The position numbers and the translations under genes are program-made. The notes below the pieces were generated by a model. The model saw only the letters and a program-made list of their open reading frames with translations. It did no database searches and was not told the origin of the DNA. A DNA stretch of 64,000 nt from Apteryx mantelli (taxonomy: Eukaryota; Chordata; Aves; Apterygiformes; Apterygidae), in NCBI RefSeq assembly GCF_036417845.1, contig NC_089990.1, positions 379,501-443,500 of the forward strand, in the 5' to 3' direction. Shown here piece by piece: positions 13,854 through 62,576 of the stretch; position 1 is the first letter of the stretch; each line of letters starts with the position of its first letter.

Positions 13854-16800
13854 CTGAAACAACAGAGAGAGATTAATGAGAAGGGGGAATAAATCAGAAA
13901 TCATTTGATCTACACCTTGACCAGAGAATAGCAAAACTTACACTAATCTACTAAGAGTCTGTGAGGCTCTGAAAGACACTAGAAAGCAGTATTAAAAGAA
14001 TCACACACACACTCAAAAAGAGGAAACAAACAATTAACATTGGTATCACAGTCGCTGGTGGCATTATTATACTGGTATTCAACAGACTTTCCAAAGGTTG
14101 GATTGTCACCATATAGTCCAGCCTTTGCAAAATAACTACTATTAATAATTGCTAAAACAGCAATTGGTGGGGCCACAGGTGGGTAAGGTATATCTCTGAA
14201 CAGAAAAATAGGATGAGGGGATTAAGGGCTAAGATTAAGATGGGGCAGGAAATATGTTCTTATAAGTAGAAGCAAACAGGAATTGCACAAAATAACATAT
14301 TTAGATAACCACTGGAATATGTTTCTTAAGCAAAAGGCATGTAGAGGAGGAACTTATCTTGAGGGAAGAGATGAGAATTTGTGTTCTCTGCTTTGTGAAA
14401 TAATGTTGGAAATTTACTACAGAGAACAGCTTTCCCATGGCACCTGCAAGACAGAGTGAAGGACCCAAAATATCTTCCTCTCATTCTAACGTCTTAAAGA
14501 ATAGACCCTCTCTTACTATCTTCCGCATTGAAATGTTAATGTCCTCATGCTGCTAATCAAATGCACTGTCAAGGTATTCAGATCCTCCCCCCAAGAAAGT
14601 CAAGGAAATCTTTGATCGTTCAGTGAGAAAAGAGGTTTTTCTGAAACAGATGCCAGTACTGAATCCCTCAAAGTCTTCTCAACATCACAGATGAAGAATT
14701 GTACTCACAATGCAACTTCATAGAGGGGTTCTGAAAAAAAGGGAGAATCAAAGATGTACATCAATATATTTTATTATTAATCTGCCAGGGGTTCATGCTC
14801 TGCACCGGGGTGTCCGGCGCGGAGGGAGGGCGATGGCGATTCCCAGGGGTTCATGCTCTGCACCAGGGTGTCCGGCACGGAGGAGGGTGATGGCGATTCC
14901 CAGGGGTTCATGCTCTGCACCGGGGTGTCTGGCACAGAGGGAGGGCGATGGCGATTCCCAGGGGTTCATGCTCTGCACTGGGGTGTCCAGCGCAGAGGGA
15001 GGGCAATGGCGATTCCCAGGGGTTCATGCTCTGCACCGGGGTGTCTGGCACGGACGGAGGGTGATGGCGATTCCCAGGGGTTCATGCTCTGCACCGGGGT
15101 GTCCGGCACAGAGGGAGGGCGATGGCGATTCCCAGGGGTTCATGCTCTGCACCGGGGTGTCTGGCACGGACGGAGGGTGATGGCAATTCCCAGGGGTTCA
15201 TGCTCTGCACTGGGGTGTCTGGCATGGAGGGAGGGTGATGGCGATTCCCAGGGGTTCATGCTCTGCACCGGGGTGTCTGGCACGGACGGAGGGTGATGGC
15301 GATTCCCAGGGGTTCATGCTCTGCACCGGGGTGTCTGGCATGGAGGGAGGGTGATGGCAATTCCCAGGGGTTCATGCTCTGCACCGGGGTGTCCGGCGCA
15401 GAGGAGGGCGATGGTGATTCCCAGGGGTTCATGCTCTGCACTGGGGTGTCCGGCGCAGAGGGAGGGCAATGGGCAGAAGCGGCCAGAGCTGTCCCGGCAG
15501 AGGGACCCCACGGAGCTGGCTCCAGCCGAGCCTCCCGGTCTTTATTCGAGGCAGCCCGTGCAAAGCGGCCCTGCAGCAGCGGCCGTGTGGCACAGCCCAG
15601 CCGAGGCAGCGCCTGTCCCTGCTGGACCCCGCCAGTCCCGGCGCCCACCTGCCCGCCTCCCATCTCCTCCGGGCCATGCGTCGCTCTGCTCACCGTCCCT
15701 CGCCTTCCCTCGGCGCACGATGGCCACGGCGATGGAGACGAGCGCGGCCCCGCAGAGCCCGGCCACCAGGACGATGAGGTACAGCGGCAGGCGGCCCCGC
15801 TGCAGCCCTGCACGAGACAGACGAGCCCCGGTCCGCAAGCGCTCGCTCCAACGCCAGCCCGGGGCCCGGGGCCGGGACCTGCCGCCTCCCCGCCGGCCGT
15901 GGCCGCCTGGCTGGAGAGCCCGCGCGGATGCCGCGTGACATCCGGACCTCTGGGCCCGATCCATGCCCACGGGGCAGCATTTCTCACCCAGGGGTTAACG
16001 GGTGGGACGGGCTGGCATTGCAAGAGCGGTGCTGAGCACAGCCACATAAAGCATTTCGAGCGAGACCTCAAGCCGAGCTGCGCCAGCCTGCTCTGGAGCC
16101 TCTGCATCCAGCCCCTCCTATGCGGAGTCACTAAGGCTGCTGAATATTTGCAGTAAATACTCGTTTTGCTTTAAAACCAAACAAAACCTTCAACAGCAGT
16201 GAAAACCTAGCTAAACTGTGACATCTGTGCCTGAGTTCAATGTTAAAATTTTCAGCCCCTTTAAGGCAGAAACACAACGCAAACTTAAGGCAATAAACAA
16301 GCTCCAGAAGACCTGCGGATGGGAGGCCAAGAGGGGAATTCCTGCTTAGAGAAAAATCTGTTATTTGACAGGCCAGGAATTTGTTCTCTGAAGCAAAATC
16401 TGCTGCAAAATGCAGCTGCCAAGTCCCCTGTTTGGTCTGCCAGACAGCGGTTGTCAATCTGCCCTTGTCAGCGCTAATCTTGTATTTTTCTGCATGAGCC
16501 TTTTGCTTAGCGCTGTGAGGTCTCTGCTTACCTGTGGCAACGGGAGACCTTGCTGAAACATCGTCCTTCCTGGAGGTCGGTGTCGCTGTGGGCAGATCTG
16601 CAAAAGAGGAGGAGCGCAGCTGTAACGCTTCCCACCGCGTCAGGGCCGCGTCAGGCGGGAGCGGGGTTTGCTCTGGGACGCGGTGGCGGTGCTGGGGCGT
16701 GATCTCCGCGGGCCCCGTCCCACGCCCCCCGGCCGCCGGCGAGGCTCACCAGCACCACTCCTCACCACTGGCAGGCAACGGCTGCCCTGAGGCCGCCTGG

Positions 16801-19800
16801 CCCGTTTCGGCAAGAACATCGCCCTGACTCTCCCAGGCTAACGTTTCTGGGGTAAAAGGAAAGAAAACACCTATTTGACCTGCTCTCAGTGACAAGCCAC
16901 ATTTTTATCCCTGACGTTCCATCTCTGTCCCGGCCTCCACACCCCAACACGTCAATGGTAACCCTGCCAGACGTGGTGTGTTTGTAGATACAAGCGCTTG
17001 CGGCTGGCTTCAGATCAAACCCACATCTACAGCTGCAGAGGATGCTTCAATCTTCTCTCTCGCTGGGCCTCATCCAGGCTTCCGCAGGGCTTTCTCACTT
17101 CATCCCTCCTGCGATGACGCCCCAGCTGTCCTGGGGTGTTTTACAGGTGGCAGCTGCGCCCCGAGGCTCCCTGACGGATGAAGCCCCCAGGCAGGCTTCG
17201 TGCGCCCAGGTGACCTCCTGCTGAAGCTGTGCGACACCCTGGTTTCCCAGGCTGTGGCCCCCCAGCACGGGCTTGGCTGCTCTCAGGGGGGGCTCCGGCC
17301 CAGCCACGCAGAGCCGAGCACCTGCATCCAGGGCACATGGGCACCCACTTCCATCCCACCTGGAGAGAGCATCTGCAGCCCCAAAAGTCAATAAGGTGGA
17401 TTTGTCTCACTCGGTTCAAAGCCTTATTTCCACACCCTGCATCATTCACACGCTGCTGGGAAGAAAGCGGCACTTCCTTTGCAGCCCTGAGCCTGCCTCC
17501 GTCTCGGCCCTCGCTGGCCTCACCTCCCTGTGCGGTGAGCTTGGGGCTGGTGGGTCTGCAGGTCGCAGTGCCAGGCGCTGCCCGACCGGGACCCTGTGGG
17601 AGGGACCGGCCACGGGACAATTTCCCGCACTCCTCGTTGGCATTACAACCCGGGTAAGAGGAAGACATGCCAAGAGCAGGAGCGAGGCTCCTGCCCTGCG
17701 CATCTGGGTCCCACAGGGACGTTATTCTCAACCCTGCCACGATCAGCCATGCTCTGAAGCAGGGAGGATGTCAGACCTTGTGGTTTCCTCTCTGAGTGGC
17801 ACTAAAATCACAACTCATATTCGGCGTTAATTGTCTGATCTGTGTACAGAAAGGGGAAACCGTTTGCCTTGATCATTTCCTGCAGCTGCAATGACGAGCT
17901 CTAGTTTGGGGACTCACCTCTCACCGTCAGCTCTACGGCATCGCTCTGCCGGGCAACGCGTGCCCCAACCCTGTTCTCTGCTTCACAGTAGTATTTCCCT
18001 GAGTCGGAGGGTCGCAGACTGTCAAACGTGAGTTCGGCCTGACTGCTCAGATACTGAGCTTTTCCTCCTGGCTCTCCCAGGAACCAGCGGTAGCTGATGG
18101 GTGGGGATCCGCTGGCCACGCAGGTCAGGCTGGTCCTGGCTCCTGCTGGGAGCATCAGTCCCAGCTCACCAGCCCTGATGATGGGCTTAGTCACTGCAAC
18201 TGAAAGACAAGCAGATTGGGCTCAGGTCACACTGGCCTTGGCTGTTTCAGAAGTCTTCCCGACGCTCTATGGCAGTTCACTTGCCGGGTTTAAGCCCTTT
18301 CCCAGAAGGAACAGAGGCACCACTCTTATGTCACCTCTGCACAGATTAAGCTCAGCTCTCCTGTCCCTATAGACAGCTTTACACCAGTTATGCCACCCAT
18401 TGCAACTGCCATGTCACAGAAGACCTGCTCTGTTGGATTGGTGCCCTCTCTGCCCCGCCACAAACCCACCTTGCAGAAAGAGAGTTAGTTCTAGCACACA
18501 TTGAGGATGCTCTGGAAGGGGAGAAGGCATATTTGGCCAATACAACATCCACCTGATTTCCCATTTGCACAGGAACCATAGAGACACTAGTTATCTGGAC
18601 AGAACCAAAGACAGATTTGAGTGCTATCTCAAGCAGCAGTGGGTTCAGGTGGCCCACTGGTAGATCCAGATTTGGGTCTGAACTAACTGCTCCCCCTTCC
18701 ACAGTCCACCACACCACCACAGTCCTGAGATGCATCATTTCCTCCTCAGAGAGGAGGGTCTAGCAGCAAGGGAGAGGCAGACACTCTTCCCAACAAGATG
18801 CTTCAGCACCCAGTTTGGATGCAGGTAGACAATGTGCTGTGAAAGACTCTTGTGCTACACGCTTCCTACCAGCTGCCTCTTGTGCTATGTGCTTTGTGAA
18901 TTAGAAAGGCTATGCAAGAGCAGGGCTTTATTGCTGGATTTACCTTTGACAACTTTAACTGTAGTGGTCATCTCCTTTGTTATCAAGCTGTTATTTTTAG
19001 AGCTCCAGATGACTTGACAGGTGTAGTGTCCACTGTCAGGGATTTCAAGGTTCTTGATTTGAAGTGTGACATCCCCTGGGCTGTTCTTTGGGACAGTGAC
19101 ACGGTCTCTGAACCGAGACAACAAGACGTGGTCACCAGAGTTATCCCTCCGAAAGATGGTGGTGGTGCTGTAGTCTCGCTCCATACTCCAGATGAGTGTT
19201 TGCTGCGTGAAACCTTCTGAGGGCACATAGGTACAAGGTAAAGTGGTGGATTCCTTCCATGTCCCATTGATCTGGTGGAGGCCAGACAGGTCCAGGAGGG
19301 CTGCAGGGAACAACAGTTGAAGAGAAGAAATAAGAACACTGCAAAGGAGGAAGTGTCCTTAGGATAGACAGGAATCACCAGAAGGTGGAAGCCAGCATGA
19401 AGCAGCATGTTAGATGTGCTGCAGACCACAGCTGCCTAAACCTGAGCCTGTCTACATCTCACTGAGCACAGGGATGTGAACAGTTGCTTCAACCTCATGG
19501 CTATTTTTATTGATTCTCTCTGGATGCTTGCCAGTTTTCAATTCCTTCTTGGTACAGAGAGGCACAAATTCTGCTCCTGGTGGTAACATCACAGCTGTGG
19601 TGTTCACGAGATCTTAAGATGCACCTCTAAATCCTGCTCCACAGCCCCAGCCTTCATGTTCTGCTTTTGCTGCTTGGCTTTCTGCTTCTACTTGCAGGTG
19701 ATGAGTCAAACAGCAGTGGACCTTCTCCCACCCCCAAAGACACTGGGTGCTCTGACGACACCACTTGCGATATTGTTCTGTACCTTACACGTGGGAGGAA

Positions 19801-34800: not shown

Positions 34801-37800
34801 AACACAGTACTCACCAGTTTTGGGCTTTCTAATGCAAAGGATAATAAAGATGATAAGGAAAACAACAGCACTGCAAACCACAGCAATCAGTATGATCAGG
34901 TACAGGGACAGGTGAGTCTTCTGGAAATCTAGAACGACAAAGCACAAGCCTTTCAAACAGAGAAACACTCCTGGGCTGCAATAGCAGCAGCAGTTACATG
35001 ATACTGACCATCTCCCTGAGGGCAAAAATGGGCTGGCTGCTCAGCCAGCCTTTGCAATGGGCAGGCAGTTATACCACATGTTTTTGTCCCTGCTTTTCCC
35101 TATCCTAACATCGCCTCAGTCATTTGGCTTTGAATAGGTGTGTTTGTGTAAGCTAGCTAGACTTACTGTTCATGCATCTCACTGAGACACTGGGACCATA
35201 AAGGCCACTGGCAGAACTTCTTACTTGGAGATGCTCAGGCTAACCGAGGCTGCGAGAACCACTCTGAGCAGAGCTGGACAGAATAGTTACAACACAAGCC
35301 ATGAAATTTGGGGGCTCAGTCTATACCATCAGCCCTTTTCATCCACAGATACAGTTCAGTTGTTAGAACTGTTTAAACCCACCACAGCACTGCAAAGCTG
35401 GATGAACTATGAAAGATCTGCCCAAACTGTACACTGAGCCTCTTCTGCTCATCCAACTTTCACGCTCAAAGAAAAGACCAGAACAGACTACTGTTTGGGA
35501 ATGCAACAAGGACTCTGTGACCACTCTAACTGTGAAACTGTATCTTTTCTTACATCCAGAGTCTTTTCAAGAGCCACCATGAAACATTCACATCATAAAA
35601 AGCAATGACTGGGATAAGAAAGAGGAACAGGTCAGCGCTTCAAAAATCTAAATACACCGAGAGCACCATTTGCATCCAAGATGCAGAACATTAGTTTGGG
35701 GGCTGAAGGTACTGACCGAGTGGCTAGTTTGGGTCCCTAATCTTCTTAGCTTTTGTTCTGTTCTCCACTTACCTTTAGTTGTATGATTCTTTCCTGGATT
35801 TCCTACATCATTCTCAGAAGTCATTACTGTTAGGGGCAGATCTGCAAAAACACAGTCTCCATCACCTTTACAATGCAGTGAAACTAGGCAAACTCTAGAA
35901 GGGCTATATATATTCACCTGCCACAGTGGTAGAGCTTTGTGGAGTCCCAGGGATTACTGAGGTGCCTCTGAACACCAGCTCTGTTTGGCTCTTTTCTGTA
36001 AGAATAGTCAAGAATGGTCAACATCTTCCCCTCAGTTTCTAGTTGCTGAAGGTGATTCACACAGCCTGCTGTGAGGCTGGCAGCGTACTATAAATTCAGA
36101 CAAAGCATTACCCCAAAATATTTTTTCCCACAAGCAGATCTACTCTACCCCAAGTCCAAATTCCCACAATCCATAAAGACAAACCATGCAAATTACAAGC
36201 CTCCTTTGAAACAACTGTCCTTGGTAATTTGGACCATTTCTGGACAAGTTTGAAGCAGTTTTTGTATCATCTGTATCTGCCAGTAGAGATACTACTACTC
36301 TGCCTCCCACTTCAGTGGTTTTCACTCAAGACCAGAAAAACAAGCAAAAAGCCCTTTAAAAGAAAAAAAGAACAAATTCCAGAATATCCTGTATGGTCTA
36401 CAAGTTAAGTAGTAGTATTTCTAGCAGCACTCAGAACATACAAATTTATTCAGACAGAAAGCTGAAGCAAAAGCAACAAAAATATTAAGTACCTTTTCAC
36501 CAGCAGCAAAATACAATGCTAAGTGCTGGCATTAAACCTCCAACTTGACATTTTTCTTTGCCATTAACTTTCTTCTTTGCCATTAACTTCCACTAAGCTC
36601 CTTGTACTTGTGTTTGTTATCTCCCTCTGAAAGACCCCTGTTGTTGGGGGTGGAGTTTGAGGGCCTACTGAGGTACCTGTGAGCACCAGCCACGGAGTCA
36701 TTGGGTTGTTTCTCCAAGGACAATCCTCCTTTAGGCTGGCTGACATATATATGGAGGGATGGGGTGAAAGTGTTCTTGGGGTGGGAGTGCACTTAGAATC
36801 AACCCGAAAGCCCAAAACCCACGAAGAAAAGGTGATCCAATGCCCAAGATCCTTACCCGACAGCCCACATAGACCATGGAAATTGTAAGTTTGGTCTCTC
36901 TACAGCCATCCTTGAGAATACAGGCTCAAAACGCTGCCAGCGTAAAATCAGCCCAAAAGATGAAGCAGTTTGTGGCAACACATAAAACACACATATACAT
37001 ACAACTAGACACACCACCTCAGCCTCTTATTAGACCTCAGAAAGGACTGGATACAAACCCCCTACAAGCAAGCAAAAAGCCCTCCACAGATTGGAGAGTT
37101 AGGAAAGTAGGATGCTTTGTATTCAGAGACAGCTGGATTAAAAACTGAGGCAAACAGACTAAAAATAATATTTTGTCAAAAGAGTGTTCCTCAGCAACAA
37201 AACCCATTGCAAAACACCGGTGTTAACCCTCCAACTGACTCCTTGTTCTTGCCATCAGCTATAACTGCTATTAACCCCTCACCTGTGGTTGTGTGGTATC
37301 TCTCTGGGGTTCCCACATCACTCGCAAAAACCACTGTTGTTGTGGGCAGATCTGCAAGTTGAACAAGAGTGACAGGCAAAAAAGGAGTTTGACCATGGTT
37401 TCTTTTGCTGCAGTAATACAGGAGAATTTTTCCACTTGACCTATAAGACAGTGAAAAGCCAACCAACCATCTAGAAGACAGGTAGGGGACTGGTTGCTAG
37501 CAGTGTTAGAAAGCAGGCACGGTCATAATTAATTCTTATTCCTTTGCTGTACACTCTTTTGCACTCATGCGCAACTGTTCCAAAAATAACAATGCATATT
37601 CGGCATTGTCTGATCTGTGTACAGAAAGGGGAAACCGTTTGCCTTGATCATTTCCTGCAGCTGCAATGACGAGCTCTAGTTTGGGGACTCACCTCTCACC
37701 GTCAGCTCTACGGCATCGCTCTGCCGGGCAACGCGTGCCCCAACCCTGTTCTCTGCTTCACAGTAGTATTTCCCTGAGTCGGAGGGTCGCAGACTGTCAA

Positions 37801-40404
37801 ACGTGAGTTCGGCCTGACTGCTCAGATACTGAGCTTTTCCTCCTGGCTCTCCCAGGAACCAGCGGTAGCTGATGGGTGGGGATCCGCTGGCCACGCAGGT
37901 CAGGCTGGTCCTGGCTCCTGCTGGGAGCATCAGTCCCAGCTCACCAGCCCTGATGATGGGCTTAGTCACTGCAACTGAAAGACAAGCAGATTGGGCTCAG
38001 GTCACACTGGCCTTGGCTGTTTCAGAAGTCTTCCCGACGCTCTATGGCAGTTCACTTGCCGGGTTTAAGCCCTTTCCCAGAAGGAACAGAGGCACCACTC
38101 TTATGTCACCTCTGCACAGATTAAGCTCAGCTCTCCTGTCCCTATAGACAGCTTTACACCAGTTATGCCACCCATTGCAACTCCTACACTGAAGACCTTT
38201 TCTGCTGTGTTGATGCCATCTCCATTCCTCTATAAATCATCACTGCCCAAATAAAGGGAGTTCTGGGATGTACAATGGTATTTGGTCAAAGAAGAGCAAT
38301 GCAATATCCTAGTTATTTCCTTTCTGCTGCAGATCCCACAGAAACATTGGGTAATCGGATACAAGTAGAGTCAGGGACAAATTAGTAAGTGAGAGGCCAC
38401 AAAACTTTCCCCCAATCCCTGAACCAGACACTGCAGTATCATGGGCCTGAATTCCCTTCCCTGACCCATTTCCTGCTTCTCAGAGGAGTCAGACTCCACT
38501 CAACAAAAGCTTCCTGTATTGGAAGTGAGTGATCACTGGCTACATGGTCTATTAAATAGCTAAATACTTTCTGAATGACAAAGCCTTCCACTCTTGCACA
38601 GCTTCCTTTTTGGATTTACCTTTAACCACCTCAACTCTGGTGGTGATCTCTCTTGTTATCAGGCTGTTGTTGCTGGCTCTCCAGGTGACTTGGCAAGTGT
38701 AGGTTCCCCTATCGGAGATTTCAAGTCTCAAAATATGAAGAGACACATTCCCTGGAGAGTTCTTCAGGACACTGACCCTATCTCTGTACTCAGACAGTAG
38801 AATGTGATCACCAGAGCTGTCCCTCCGAAAGATGGTGCCCGAATTTTGGTCATGTACCACAGTCCAAGTAAGTGTTTGCTGCACAAAGTCCTTCACAGGC
38901 ATATAGCTACATGGCAAGATGGTAGATCCCTTCCATACTCCTTCAATTTCATTGGGGCCAGCCAGGTCCAGAAGAGCTGCGAGAAAAATGGAGAGAGAAA
39001 AGGAAAAGAAAATCCAAAAAAACCCAGCCAAACAAAACTCCACTACCATGGTGAAGGCAGCTCCTGGATCATGAAACAATGGTGAGAGCATCAGCAAGTG
39101 GAATTCACCGTATCAGAAACACTGGCAGTCAATATAGAGTGAAGGAATGTCTTTCAGGGGCTGGGCTAACAAAAGAGCAACTCAGTGTGAAGATGACAGA
39201 TGGGAGACAGCTGATTGCAAGAAGAACTGAAATATGGCATGTGTGCTGAATTTGGCTGTGGTGCTCTGTCTGGTGTTTGCAGGTAAACACCAGACAGAGC
39301 ACAAGAGCCAAATTCAGCCTCAGGCAGTGCATGAGATCAGAATTAGTAGGTTTAAACTTGAGGGAAGCAGTTTGTCACCAAATCTAAGTCCCACAGCTCC
39401 CCAGTCACACTTAGCATTTATCCTTCTTTCACTTAATTTCACTTTCAGGGCTTTTGTGGGAAGCACTGCATGTTAACAGCAGATCATGACACGGTTTATG
39501 CTTCCTCTTCCCTACTGTCTAAACAATCATTCTTTGCTTTTCCATACCACCCCGAATTTAAGCAACTAAAGCAATAGACAAGAGAAATCTAAAACTCCTC
39601 CAATTTTGCCATAAAAAAAAGGTTTCCCCAAACCATTTTCCTTACTGTTAGGGGTGAACCTATACTTCCACAGACACCTTTTCAGGCAACATCAACCTTT
39701 ACCTTTCCTTCTGGTTTCCAAACCTCCCCTTTGCTGGTGCCATCCTACAGATGATATGGAGGCACATCTAAGGTCAAACTAAAGGGCTCTGTGAATCTAA
39801 CCTCAAATGCCAGGTTCCTTCTTCTTCATGCAAGCAGAGAAGAAGTAGACCAGGAGCTGACCCAGATGAATTGGGTGTCTGGTTGTGTCTCTAGCCTTGT
39901 GGTTACAGCAATATGTCTTTTCCCTTGCTGCTGGTGTTTAGTTTTAACAGCTATTCATGCTTCTCTTCGCAGTGAGCTTTCTGGAAGCTGACATGCCAGC
40001 CAGAGCAGAAACTCTCCAAGGACCTTGGGCAGTCCCTTTTGGTTCTAGCTTGAGGAACATCAGGGCTAACCAGATGTCCAGTGCTGTGCTGCTTGCTATG
40101 CCCTTTGAAAGAACTCATTATGTTAGATACAAGAGCTTTGTATTGGGCAGCGTTTCATACGCTTCATGCACCGTTACACTCTGCAGCCACTAGATTTGAA
40201 GCAACTGAACACCAAACCAGAAGTATGCAAAGAAGTTGGCTTTTTTAGCCATATTTCTTTTCCTGAAGCCCCTATACAAATATTCCCCTACATACACCTG
40301 GGTCAGGGAAGGAGCTTCCTCTGAACATAAAAGCTTTTTCATTACTCACCATTGCAGAAAAGAAGAGGACTCATAAGCACAACAGTTCTCACCAGCATTC
40401 CCAT
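31597..40404 (-). CDS. VSIG4: VSIG4 (CRIg)-type complement receptor, copy A
   Basis: A complete type I membrane protein of 429 aa from ten in-phase exons: 40350-40404, 38620-38976, 37693-37974, 37283-37351, 36608-36676, 35918-35965, 35773-35841, 34815-34928, 32927-32948 and 31597-31801. Order: signal peptide (1-18), V-set (about 19-137; LPC, LTW, DRGTYTC, FRRDSSGDH), C2-set (about 138-231), a long Thr/Ser/Pro stalk from four small exons (about 232-316), transmembrane helix (about 323-349) and a tail with tyrosines 358, 381, 392, 412 and 423. The role expected from the family is binding of C3b/iC3b-coated particles by macrophages. Its stalk is about 85 aa against 22 in copy B, and its tail has EYDTL (YxxL) rather than YxxM motifs. 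It lies next to HSF3, as VSIG4 does in mouse. The 36608-36676 exon is the least certain. Confidence 0.9.
32927..32948 (-). CDS. VSIG4: VSIG4 copy A exon 9: 22-bp exon
   Basis: 22 bp between TTTTCTAG and GTGAGT, encoding AHVYEVK plus two bases. Same size and phases as in copy B and clearly related to the HVYE end of human VSIG4. Confidence 0.86.
33110..33245 (+). repeat. Ancient MIR/CORE-type SINE fragment
   Basis: Inside intron 8 of copy A, a segment with AATTTGCCCAAAGTCA, AGTTCAGTTTAGAAACCAG and AGTTCCCAGTTCCCACACTT follows the order of old amniote SINE 3' halves (TTGCCCAAGGTCA, then CCAGGAGT). Diverged; the family is tentative. Confidence 0.45.
34815..34928 (-). CDS. VSIG4: VSIG4 copy A exon 8: transmembrane
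   Basis: 114 bp, phase 1 to 1, between GTTCTAG and GTGAGT. The helix LSLYLIILIAVVC to FIILCI is followed by the basic RKPK. Same length as the copy B exon but with AT-rich codons. Confidence 0.9.
35773..35841 (-). CDS. VSIG4: VSIG4 copy A exon 7: stalk
   Basis: 69 bp, phase 1 to 1, between TTTTTGCAG and GTAAGT, encoding DLPLTVMTSENDVGNP and so on. It is homologous to the DLPTTT exon at 37283-37351, so the stalk grew by exon duplication. One NHT sequon is present. Confidence 0.83.
35918..35965 (-). CDS. VSIG4: VSIG4 copy A exon 6: stalk
   Basis: 48 bp, phase 1 to 1, encoding a GTSVIPGTPQSSTTVA stalk with a good donor (CAG/GTGAAT). The acceptor is the second AG of CAGAG, chosen by phase and by likeness to GTSVGPQTP in the exon at 36608-36676. 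Confidence 0.72.
36608..36676 (-). CDS. VSIG4: VSIG4 copy A exon 5: stalk, weak donor
   Basis: A candidate 69-bp exon, phase 1 to 1, after acceptor GCTCACAG. It encodes GTSVGPQTPPPTTGVFQR and so on. Its length equals that of the two DLP-type stalk exons, and its surroundings repeat those of exon 4. The donor is CAA/GTACAA, weaker than its sisters, so it may be skipped or used only in some transcripts. Confidence 0.55.
37283..37351 (-). CDS. VSIG4: VSIG4 copy A exon 4: stalk
   Basis: 69 bp, phase 1 to 1, between AACTTGCAG and GTGAGG. Encodes DLPTTTVVFASDVGTPERYH and three Thr, a likely O-glycosylated stalk. Counterpart of the single stalk exon of copy B. Confidence 0.85.
37605..38182. repeat. 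Identical block shared with copy B, distal member
   Basis: 578 bp identical to 17830-18407. In copy A this GC- and CpG-rich block sits among AT-rich introns and stalk exons, while in copy B its surroundings are equally GC-rich. That contrast suggests it was copied from B into A. Confidence 0.95.
37693..37974 (-). CDS. VSIG4: VSIG4 copy A exon 3: C2-set Ig domain
   Basis: 282 bp, phase 1 to 1, base-for-base the same as copy B exon 3. Contains SLTC, SGSPPISYRW and DSGKYYC. Donor is GAG/GTGAGT. Confidence 0.92.
38620..38976 (-). CDS. VSIG4: VSIG4 copy A exon 2: V-set Ig domain
   Basis: 357 bp, phase 1 to 1, between TTCTCGCAG and GTAAAT. Has the Ig cysteines (LPC, YTC), LTW and DRGTYTC, and FRRDSSGDH, close to FLRDSSGDH of human VSIG4. 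NVS and NNS sequons are present. Confidence 0.93.
39245..39318. repeat. Near-perfect foldback, 34-bp arms
   Basis: Inverted repeat in intron 1 of copy A: left arm 39245-39278, 6-base spacer GCAGGT, right arm 39285-39318. The arms match at 32 of 34 positions (GCTGAATTTGGC pairs with GCCAAATTCAGC; GTGCTCTGTCTGGTGTTT pairs with AAACACCAGACAGAGCAC). Its 74-base span resembles a pre-miRNA-sized hairpin, but there is no evidence of processing; it could equally be a recent inverted duplication. Confidence 0.9.
39965..40060. repeat. Intron 1 block also found in copy B
   Basis: The stretch GGAAGCTGACAT ... CAGAGCAGA ... CTCTCCAAGGA ... CTTGG recurs in diverged form at about 21675-21750 in intron 1 of copy B. 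It shows that introns and flanks, not only exons, were included in the duplication. Confidence 0.7.
40350..40404 (-). CDS. VSIG4: VSIG4 copy A exon 1: start and signal peptide
   Basis: 55 bp from ATG to donor GTGAGT, encoding MGMLVRTVVLMSPLLFCN and ending in phase 1. The hydrophobic core fits a signal peptide. Same length and phase as in copy B. Confidence 0.85.
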
Positions 40405-53100: not shown

Positions 53101-56100
53101 CAGATGCCAGCCTGTATACTAATCTCTGTTTAAGCTGCAGTCTGATGGTTTTCACCTTGGGACAATACCTGATAAGCAAAGGGCTGGAAATAATCTATAT
53201 CTAAAGGAATGCTATCTTCTTTGGTAACATAAGTAACCAGATCATTGCCACATTTCAACTGTTTCTCAGGACAGCAGACAGGACATGAGACAAGCGGAAA
53301 GGAAGCTGCATGCATGGCTCCAATACCAAGTTTCTCGCTGTGCTTCAAGCTATCTCCTATATTACAATACTAGCTACATACAATTCCAAGCCATTGCCCC
53401 ACATTTTGCAGTGCCAGTGAGGCAGAATAGTACTGAGCCTTCAGATTGCACCGAGTACAGTGACACATTATCTCAGTTATTCCTACCTGAAGTTTTAAAA
53501 AGCTAATTTACTGTGTTCTAGTAAACACATCCTCTAAAACTTTGACACAGAAGCAGTTAATACAGAGATCCCACAGGATGATAACTGTATAAAACAGTTT
53601 CCAGAAAAGAGTTAGTATCATGATCTACAAACCTGTCCAGTAAAGGATCATTTTGATTTCCATAATTGTTTTCATTCAAGATGGAGTCAATCACTGACAC
53701 AGGGTCTTCTGGAGCATTAGCTTGTGCAGTATGGAGCTCCACAGCATCATTTCCTATTTCACTGGATTTGTTAGCATCTTTTATCTGAACTGGAGGGATA
53801 GGTTCTGCACAATTTAACTCAGCCGGCTGTGATACTTGACAAATAGGTAAGCCAGGATCCAGAGCTGTCTGTGTCTCTCTATAAAATATGACAGACATTT
53901 TATATAATATGCCACACCCAGAAACAAGATGCAGGAGAATTCACCAACTGTATTGTTCCTTGTTCCAAGTTTAGTATCTTGAATCTTAATACCTAATAAG
54001 GTCAAACCCATCAAGGGTTCAAATAATCAACTGGTCTTTTTCAAAAGAGGGAAAATAACTTCTTAAAGGCAGATGAAGAATCATTTATTACAGCTTATAT
54101 GGAGAGCATGTATCAGAGCAGAACATCCCATTTTGCCAGACTAAAGAGGGCATCAGAGACGCATGGGCATGTGGTAGGAGGGAAACTCATCACACCATAT
54201 CCCTCAAAATAAAAGTTCCAAATTGGTCCATATTTGACTCTGGATATTGACAATCAAATAAGTTTTTACAAGGATCTGAGGCCACACAAAAACTGTTTTC
54301 CCTTCAGTTGCACTTAGCATAATATCAAGAGTAGTACTTAAACTGGAGACTATAAGTCTTTGTTTGCTTATTAGTAAACTATATATGCATTCAGGTCCCT
54401 GTTCAGTCAAAGAGTCAAGCACGCTTATTTGTTAAGTAGGCAGAAAAGCCTCACCAAATTAAGCTCCAAGTGTCAACCAGCTTTCTAAGATTACAGGCAC
54501 TCTCAAAGAGATGTGAATTCTTAAAGAGCTTTGCTGACCATGGCCAATGCTGCATGCTGTAAAAAGACAGCCTACAAAGAAGCCTGTCATGCACAGACAT
54601 AGTAAAAAATTCAGAGAGGCTGTTTCCCATTATTCAAGTCAGTCACTTACATTAACATGACTACTTGGTTAACAACTTAAGTACGAATACTTTCTCATCC
54701 TTACACATACCTGGCTTTGCCACTTGTGCGGGCCAGAGCAAGGAGCCCATCAGTGGCATTATCCAGAGTGTCAGTGATATCTCGAATGATGATACCTGTA
54801 CCATTTTCATCCTCACCATCCAAATTATGTTCAGAAAAAGTCATCTGCAGGATACAGCAAACAGAATGAATAAATCAAAATTATGACTGTTTTGGTGTAG
54901 CATCTCCATTTTCCTTGCAGTTTTTCTTCCCCATTAAGATTTCATCTATGCCAAATTGTATGGATTGCGTGATTTTGTAGACAGGGTAATGCTTTAAATG
55001 TGTCCACTTCAAAATGGACTGTATTTGATTACAAGATTAGGATAGTAACAGTTGTAAGAAAGACTTGCGGGGGGTGGTGGAAATCACTGTATAGCATCCT
55101 GTCCACCCCAGGGTTTCATCCCCTGGGAAGACTTACTGCTTGGCCACTCTCCACAGGTATGCGAACATACTGACGACTATATTTGGAAGGTGAAGCACCT
55201 GCAGCATCTGTTAGAGACCTGAGAAGAAACATGGTTTTAGTGTACACTTCAGTAGTAAAAAGTTGTAGCAATGCCAAGTAAGTGCAGTAACAGTAAGAAC
55301 TAGTGTATTTCCACTTCTAGGAAACCTTGCTTTTTGAAATTGTTTTTATTAAATGTACTGCAGATGTATTACATTCTAAATACGCTTTTTGTTTTGTAAT
55401 AAATCAGTTACAGTTGCACTTTTTAAGAGTTACTGTTTCTGGCCCTTCAGAATTTAAAATTTAGCATATCTTCTCTTTCCATGCTATTTTTTATTATAAA
55501 CAAGAAGAAATCTTCATTTCATGCTTTTTTCCACTTCCATCAGCATTCTCTAATTTGAATGAAAGAACACAAGTGATAAAAACATTCTTTCTGCACTTTA
55601 AGTATGCTGCTTCTAGAAGTTGGTTTGTCCCCATAATGCACATCCAACACTAATTTGTGACCTAGCCAGTAATTACCTTTTTCTTTTGACCCCAACAATA
55701 TAATTTCCTCGCATCAAACTTAGTATAAATTGAAGAATCTAAAAAGAAAAAAACAAAAAAAAATAAAGGAACAAGTGATCAGCATAACAATCCTAATACT
55801 AAATTATTAATTCAGACTTAAGTCAGGCTTTAGCGCAAAGTTACGCAATTATGTGATTGAAATTAATAAGTAAATTAAATCTCCATTTGCGTTCTTGTCT
55901 TAAAAACAGAAGGATAGTTACAAATGGCATTGAAAAATTATCCCACCTGGACAGATTTTTTTTTTTAATCTAATGTAACACCACAAGTCACTACGGAAGA
56001 TACCAGACCAGAAACAGCTGAGAGAGAAACCAGAGAAAATTTGATCCAGTGCAGCAACACCTATAGTTTCTGGGTTCCAAGTTGACTTCTTGAGTGGTCA

Positions 56101-62100: not shown

Positions 62101-62576
62101 ATATACTAAATCCATGGGTATAGATATGGCCTTTGTTCCTCCAAACATGCATAAGTTTGCTATTAATTTCTCGTTACCATTAACACCACTGTTAGAGCCA
62201 AGTGAACTACTTAAGCTTTATGTACCAACATAGGAAACAATGTTTTATTGTCATTGCTTAAAAAGACTCAGAGCTGAAATACAGAAAACAAAGACTAAGA
62301 CAAGTTCTGTTATTATCGTTCGCTTTTGCAAAGCAAGCTCAAGACCAAAATTCAGGTTTTCAGGGATGAAAGATCTGCCAAGTCAATTGCTTTGATTAAA
62401 GAAATACAAATTGATGCCAAGCAGCAATGAACTTGGCAGAAAGAACCCGAGAACAGTTGATACTTACACATGTTAAGCTGGCGTATGAAGCTGGAGATAT
62501 TGTTGTGTTTGAAGTATTTGGGAAGTAGCTCCTTTGCAAACCTCTGCTCATCCAGAATGCAGAAGTTCTCACCATT
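49855..62576 (-). CDS. HSF3: Heat shock factor 3, 5'-partial
   Basis: Twelve in-phase exons encode 510 aa of a heat shock transcription factor: the C-terminal two thirds of the winged-helix DNA-binding domain (to about residue 79 of the visible part), the HR-A/B leucine-zipper trimerisation region (about 80-167, with AVRTEDLKV and GVKRKR), a regulatory and acidic region, a C-terminal HR-C-like part ([16 protein letters not shown]) and a tail with [14 protein letters not shown], comparable to QLVHYTAQPLFLL of HSF1. [16 protein letters not shown] and [11 protein letters not shown] match the avian HSF3 type better than HSF1 or HSF2. HSF3 in birds binds heat shock elements as a trimer during strong heat stress. 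Exon 1 with the start codon lies beyond 64000. All splice sites are GT/AG and no stop interrupts the frame. Confidence 0.95.
50762..50828 (-). CDS. HSF3: HSF3 exon: [11 protein letters not shown]
   Basis: 67 bp, phase 0 in and 1 out, between TGCTTCAG and GTGGGC. Encodes [20 protein letters not shown] and NK. The donor GTGGGC is not ideal. If it were read through, the frame would stay open (GGQEGI...), and I recall similar residues in a chicken HSF3 form, so an alternative C-terminus is possible. Confidence 0.82.
52021..52086 (-). CDS. HSF3: HSF3 exon: HR-C-like segment
   Basis: 66 bp, phase 0 to 0, encoding [20 protein letters not shown] and EN. Donor AAT/GTAAGA was chosen over GTATGG 11 bases earlier because only the former keeps the next exon in frame. 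Confidence 0.88.
52649..52754 (-). CDS. HSF3: HSF3 exon: [16 protein letters not shown]
   Basis: 106 bp, phase 2 in and 0 out. Its heptad-like hydrophobic pattern corresponds to the segment before HR-C in HSF1 (a DxNLDNLQTML-type stretch). Confidence 0.92.
53633..53878 (-). CDS. HSF3: HSF3 exon: acidic regulatory region
   Basis: 246 bp, phase 2 to 2, between TTTTATAG and GTTTGT. Encodes [18 protein letters not shown] and a Glu/Asp/Asn-rich stretch including [16 protein letters not shown], which fits the regulatory part of HSF3. The donor GTTTGT is weak but frame and homology support it. Confidence 0.9.
54711..54844 (-). CDS. HSF3: HSF3 exon: [12 protein letters not shown]
   Basis: 134 bp, phase 0 in and 2 out. 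Encodes an acidic stretch, then [20 protein letters not shown], a segment conserved among HSFs after the zipper. Confidence 0.92.
55137..55218 (-). CDS. HSF3: HSF3 exon: Ser-rich linker after HR-B
   Basis: 82 bp, phase 2 in and 0 out, encoding [20 protein letters not shown] and PVESGQA. Confidence 0.92.
55677..55738 (-). CDS. HSF3: HSF3 exon: end of HR-A/B with GVKRKR
   Basis: 62 bp, phase 0 in and 2 out, encoding [20 protein letters not shown]. The basic GVKRKR follows the zipper as in other HSFs, where it forms part of a nuclear localisation signal. Confidence 0.93.
56510..56585 (-). CDS. HSF3: HSF3 exon: HR-A/B zipper
   Basis: 76 bp, phase 2 in and 0 out, encoding [20 protein letters not shown] and KLLSK, the central trimerisation helix with a W-E-hydrophobic heptad pattern. 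Confidence 0.95.
57433..57557 (-). CDS. HSF3: HSF3 exon: HR-A zipper
   Basis: 125 bp, phase 0 in and 2 out, encoding [20 protein letters not shown] and then [17 protein letters not shown]. Confidence 0.95.
58460..58550 (+). repeat. CR1-like 3' end fragment in HSF3 intron
   Basis: The order CAGCTGGGGCTGGACCAAAT, then CCAGAGGCCCCTTTCA and GATTCTACT, follows the 3' end of avian CR1 LINEs (GGGCTGGAC...AGGTCCCTTCCA...ATTCTATG). Diverged; orientation plus. Confidence 0.5.
60282..60409 (-). CDS. HSF3: HSF3 exon: DNA-binding domain, C-terminal part
   Basis: 128 bp, phase 1 in and 0 out. Encodes [30 protein letters not shown] and LLENIKRK: the end of the recognition helix, the wing and the last helix of the HSF DNA-binding domain. 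An A-run (about 60238-60253) lies some 28 bases beyond its donor. Confidence 0.97.
62468..62576 (-). CDS. HSF3: HSF3 exon: DNA-binding domain, recognition helix
   Basis: 109 bp after TTTCCTAG, phase 0 in and 1 out. Encodes [20 protein letters not shown] and [16 protein letters not shown], including the SFIRQLNMY recognition helix that reads GAA units of heat shock elements. This is normally coding exon 2, so exon 1 is missing from the window. Confidence 0.97.

Follow-up and report, generated by a model that had tools for sequence, protein, structure and literature searches.

Gene conversion between duplicated immune receptors has been described in birds and mammals, and the avian TLR1A/TLR1B and TLR2A/TLR2B pairs are the nearest precedent for the locus analyzed here. 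In these pairs, as studied with GENECONV and trees in several species, some regions are homogenised within species while the ligand-binding part diverges; the conversion concerns single-exon coding sequence, with the transmembrane segment and TIR included, and its events were dated by the authors to 0-20 My in birds (PMC3125219). In mammals, the tandem paralogues TLR1 and TLR6 are reported to have been kept alike by independent conversion events in nine species over one region, the C-terminal 300 residues with the transmembrane segment and most of TIR, while their other domains diverged (PMC2077338). Among Ig-superfamily genes, CEACAM paralogues swap exon-sized pieces, which are the bacteria-bound extracellular (N-) domains in primates and the leader exon with introns, as described there without the Ig exons, in ruminant CEACAM32 (PMC8860441, PMC7042247). 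As for the receptor itself, human and mouse VSIG4/CRIg consists of a V-set domain, then a C2-set Ig domain and one transmembrane segment (PDB entries; PMC10518620). According to the latter source, the V domain of human CRIg is the C3b/iC3b-binding domain and suffices for binding, the C2 domain being dispensable but restoring high C3b affinity. In the open-access literature that we searched, which is not all print, no title on duplication or conversion of VSIG4 in birds was found; in PMC6121843, VSIG4 figures as an entry in a SNP table.

We analyzed a window, that is the whole stretch of 64,000 nucleotides from the Apteryx mantelli genome (GCF_036417845.1, NC_089990.1, forward-strand positions 379,501 to 443,500), in which two VSIG4/CRIg-like genes, hereafter copy A and copy B, lie in tandem and share an identical tract in register around their C2 exons (Table 1). 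The eight best PDB sequences for the V ORF of copy A were all VSIG4 (E 1.4e-27 to 4.2e-23), which bears out the name given to the genes in the first-pass annotation; copy B is tied to VSIG4 via copy A, as 73 of the 118 residues of their V exons are identical. The C2 ORF also matched VSIG4 in PDB at E 2.6e-12, ranked behind other Ig proteins. Pfam Ig_3 was found in the ORF holding the C2 exon (E 9e-13) and Pfam V-set in the V-set exon of copy B (E 1e-10). All nine exons checked have AG/GT borders, a length divisible by three and a frame open from the third base, and can therefore join in frame; the structure of both genes as predicted from sequence then has the domain order V-set, C2-set and transmembrane in frame in both copies, as in human and mouse. 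No signal peptide exon or cytoplasmic tail was recognised by eye in the ORF lists of the window. Human VSIG4 is described as one protein with splice isoforms (PMC10518620), whereas here we observed two tandem genes, and in copy B the candidate stalk exon is duplicated, the second being a 90-nt repeat of the first at 70% identity. A repeat family of this type was not found in the corresponding stretch of copy A, and the stalk of copy B is perhaps longer and mucin-like. A further repeat in copy B, 35939-35979 with 36650-36690 (41 nt at 80%), reads as another Thr/Pro-rich candidate exon.

Table 1. Positions in the window of the predicted exons of the two VSIG4/CRIg-like genes, of the identical tract and of its edge zones.
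Feature	Copy	Position	Strand	Remarks
Transmembrane exon	A	15694..15807	-	114 nt, AG/GT borders, open
Candidate stalk exon	A	16532..16597	-	66 nt, AG/GT borders, open; resembles copy B stalk exons
C2-set Ig exon	A	17918..18199	-	282 nt, AG/GT borders, open frame, phase 1-1
V-set exon	A	18944..19300	-	357 nt, AG/GT borders, open
Transmembrane exon	B	34815..34928	-	114 nt, AG/GT borders, open; 13/37 residues as in copy A
Candidate stalk exon, second	B	35773..35841	-	69 nt, AG/GT borders, open
Candidate stalk exon 1	B	37283..37351	-	69 nt, AG/GT borders, open
C2-set Ig exon	B	37693..37974	-	same sequence as copy A
V-set exon	B	38620..38976	-	357 nt, AG/GT borders, open; 252/357 nt as in copy A
Identical tract	A	17830..18407		578/578 bases as in copy B tract
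Identical tract	B	37605..38182		578/578 bases as in copy A tract
Left edge zone	A	17804..17829		19/22 identity over 22 bp, 4-bp indel at tract edge
Right edge zone, intermediate identity	A	18408..18447		27/37 aligned columns, against 212/398 deeper in intron

Several other features were noticed around the two genes. Just downstream of the transmembrane exon of copy A lies a minisatellite (14785-15472) of a 58-bp unit in 11.9 copies with 91% matches, and upstream of the V exon of copy B a palindromic 74-bp stretch (39245-39318, self inverted match at 89%). The right side of the window carries a heat shock factor gene, with an HSF DNA-binding domain at 62355-62576 on the minus strand (Pfam HSF_DNA-bind, E 4.7e-13); the ORF 53560-53940 looks by eye like a C-terminal HSF part and gave no hit in the Pfam search. 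Avian HSF3 is located near VSIG4. A short plus-strand peptide at 299-325 resembles an Ig F-strand motif, probably by chance as its ORF is without a Pfam hit.

The tract shared by the two genes cannot be extended by even one base on either side. It is made up of the 282-bp C2 exon, 208 bp of upstream intron and 88 bp of downstream intron, and neither the ~74 synonymous sites of the exon nor the 296 bp of intron hold a difference. Among the pairs listed in the self-BLAST of the window it comes first with 1075 bits, while the best other pair between both genes reached 203 bits. In the alignment of both loci each 50-bp window from 17850 to 18399 was 100% identical, and the longest identical run, with gap columns removed, was 588 columns; when the columns (1439 ungapped, 327 mismatches among them) were shuffled 10,000 times, the longest run was at most 65. 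The second longest exact word common to 13-28 kb and 31-46 kb, compared on the same strand with words of at least 16 bp, was 18 bp.

Outside the tract the sequences differ strongly. All ungapped columns there are 62% identical (n=861), and between the unconverted parts of both genes identity is ~53-71%, no identical run being longer than 18 bp. The V exons, 70.6% identical at nucleotide level with a longest identical run of 18 bp, align over 118 codons with no indel (dN 0.26, dS 0.93), and the transmembrane exons over 37 codons (dN 0.58, dS 1.39) with a longest identical run of 8 bp. The upstream intron beyond the tract is 55% identical over 433 columns (239/435 when aligned alone), whereas in 10 trials with shuffled introns of the same composition the identity averaged 41% and never exceeded 45.5%, so the outer upstream intron retains a real but very old homology. 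A sensitive comparison of the loci found 13 same-orientation segments common to both copies, one of them holding the tract; six further segments with E of 0.002 or less are collinear at 56-65% identity across 13.6-27.3 kb (copy A) and 31.6-45.2 kb (copy B), and the last six, with E 0.21-0.90, may be due to chance except for one at 16519 on the stalk exon. On the evidence of these alignments the gene pair is an old tandem duplication, and a recent duplication of the whole genes is ruled out by the strong divergence of the other exons and introns. What had been claimed for this block on first sight, namely a lack of any mismatch with introns included, a C2 exon lying inside the tract in both VSIG4-like copies, strongly diverged V-set exons and diverged flanking introns, agrees with our alignments.

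At both ends the tract runs into homologous sequence. To its right, successive windows drop to 0.79 and then 0.54 identity; to its left, the edge window has 0.87 identity, followed by 0.42 or less. When 200,000 pairs of 22-bp pieces were drawn at random from the downstream introns, 0 attained the match seen beyond the left indel; homology on this side stops after 26 bp and the deeper left sequence does not align. On the right, the higher identity of the 40-bp flank relative to the deeper intron gave a one-sided p of 0.015, and other flank sizes gave 0.070 (30 bp), 0.038 (60 bp) and 0.058 (80 bp), tests which are post hoc and weak. The first-pass annotation had noted diverged homology on the right side, which we confirmed, but this was too narrow as the left edge has it as well. 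We therefore have an unusually identical stretch between paralogues which is bounded by diverged homologous sequence, the pattern by which a conversion tract is recognised.

We consider it probable that the tract arose by interlocus gene conversion, that this was probably recurrent and that the last event was recent. An ancient tandem duplication would have left two minus-strand VSIG4/CRIg-like genes separated by ~19 kb, and outside one island both copies would have drifted far. This island would consist of the C2 exon with ~300 bp of adjoining intron, in which a break in one copy would be repaired from the other, every repair would restore the identity needed by the next one, and the latest transfer would be recent enough that 578 bp hold no difference. 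Conversion needs a homologous seed. It is reported to occur mainly at >80% identity with ~200 bp of identical sequence as the efficient minimum, rarer conversion below these limits and with short seeds also being on record, and mean tract lengths are given as ~200-500 bp with one estimate of >1 kb (PMC3924818); the 578 bp observed here are thus near the reported means and within the known range. Since the remainder of the two genes, at ~53-71% identity and without an identical run above 18 bp, is under the limits of efficient conversion, a recurrent island is likelier than a single transfer between copies that had diverged throughout, and we rank it above the latter. Moreover, full conservation of the protein would not have kept the introns around the C2 exon from drifting as the neighbouring intron did, so repeated renewal of the island is the simplest consistent history. 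The zones of intermediate identity at both edges are weakly suggestive of recurrence, although they could instead be sites of strand recapture during one event; the edges are sharp and the left homology is gone after 26 bp, which speaks against a recurrent island. A recent conversion tract as the simplest reading, as proposed in the first-pass annotation, is accordingly supported as far as conversion is concerned, whereas a single recent tract is probably an incomplete account because the parts outside it are too diverged for efficient conversion. The accompanying statement that the C2 domain has been homogenised while the V domains remain different describes the sequence correctly.

The alternative which survives best, though we regard it as unlikely, is that one recent conversion took place with none before it, in which strand invasion started from a C2 exon of moderate conservation and exon and introns were copied together. 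The uninterrupted tract with its sharp ends is what such an event should leave, and low-rate conversion at <80% identity is on record (PMC3924818); however, it would need a seed in an exon where divergence is expected to be about that of the V exon, and copying would have to pass through introns which are elsewhere only ~55% alike. Somewhat less likely still is an artefact of assembly or polishing, in which case C2 regions that in fact differ, slightly or fully, would have received one and the same sequence through a collapsed bubble, a filled gap or polishing with cross-mapped reads. An identity without a single difference is what this would produce, but in each gene the tract has the right register and frame and its splice borders are correct, both of its edges pass into homologous sequence that has diverged, the window is without any N, and even a collapse of small differences presupposes a near-identical island. 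Purifying selection alone, for which it can be said that C2 codes for a plausible Ig domain, has a negligible probability and is ruled out as the sole cause, since the introns and synonymous sites are identical too while the adjoining intron is not. Equally negligible is the probability that the C2 exon was brought in by a mobile element or by a recent dispersed duplication. The sharp edges and the short left homology might suggest such an origin, but it is ruled out, like a retrocopy, by the register and reading frame that the tract keeps in each of the genes, by the included introns and by the homology continuing past both edges, in agreement with the earlier view that this is not an inserted element. 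No flanking duplication of the target-site type was seen by eye at the printed tract edges, and a search for relatives of the C2 protein in viral and prokaryote contigs, collections which would not contain bird elements, gave 13 and 169 pattern matches with 0 confirmed.

We also examined which copy may have been the donor and how recent the last transfer may be. The surroundings of the two copies differ in composition within 20 kb, those of copy A being GC-rich in contrast to those of copy B, with GC3 of the transmembrane exons at 0.97 (A) vs 0.54 (B), 15 vs 0 CpG, and GC of the 500 bp downstream at 0.59 (A) vs 0.42 (B). The tract itself, with GC 0.55 overall and 0.60 in the C2 exon, is intermediate to high relative to these surroundings, a composition which fits either copy as donor with or without GC-biased conversion. 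As for a third copy as donor, tblastn with the V and C2 proteins found no third Ig exon in the window, the best other hits among the matches printed at E <5 having E 0.16 (C2) and 0.26 (V). With 0 differences in 578 sites the divergence is at most 0.52% (95% upper bound). At a rate of 1.9e-9 substitutions per site per year this places the last transfer within roughly the past 1.4 My, and at the slowest yearly rate given for birds, 0.16e-9 (PMC9995274), within ~16 My, both being soft bounds.

Compared with the systems described above, the process of gene conversion is already known and the VSIG4-like pair is a new place for it. Like the avian TLR pairs these are duplicated bird immune receptors in which one region is alike and the ligand-binding part differs, but our evidence comes from one window, and here an internal Ig exon with introns is concerned while the transmembrane exons have diverged (PMC3125219). 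The pair likewise resembles TLR1/TLR6, with the difference that only the extracellular membrane-proximal Ig domain is kept alike (PMC2077338). It shares the exon-sized exchange with CEACAM, but in contrast to the primate genes the C2 exon has apparently been converted and the V exon not, and in contrast to ruminant CEACAM32 an Ig exon is involved (PMC8860441, PMC7042247). Distinctive for the present locus is that one internal Ig exon and its intron borders are alike while strong divergence is seen in the V exon on one side and the transmembrane exon on the other.

For work on the Apteryx mantelli genome it follows that short reads from within the tract fit either gene, so that expression values and variants called there would be attributed wrongly. 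More tentatively, and with somewhat less than an even chance in our estimation, the C2 exon may have been a conversion island alive since the duplication, so that in many bird lineages the two genes would have one constantly renewed membrane-proximal Ig domain in common, with C3b-binding V domains and membrane anchors evolving apart. If such a long-lived island is true, the two genes would in effect be two receptors sharing one common module. If confirmed across birds, the locus would offer a clean natural case for what sustains a small conversion island amid drift past the usual limits of conversion, and an Ig-superfamily complement receptor would join the tandem immune receptors in which the mode of evolution differs from domain to domain.
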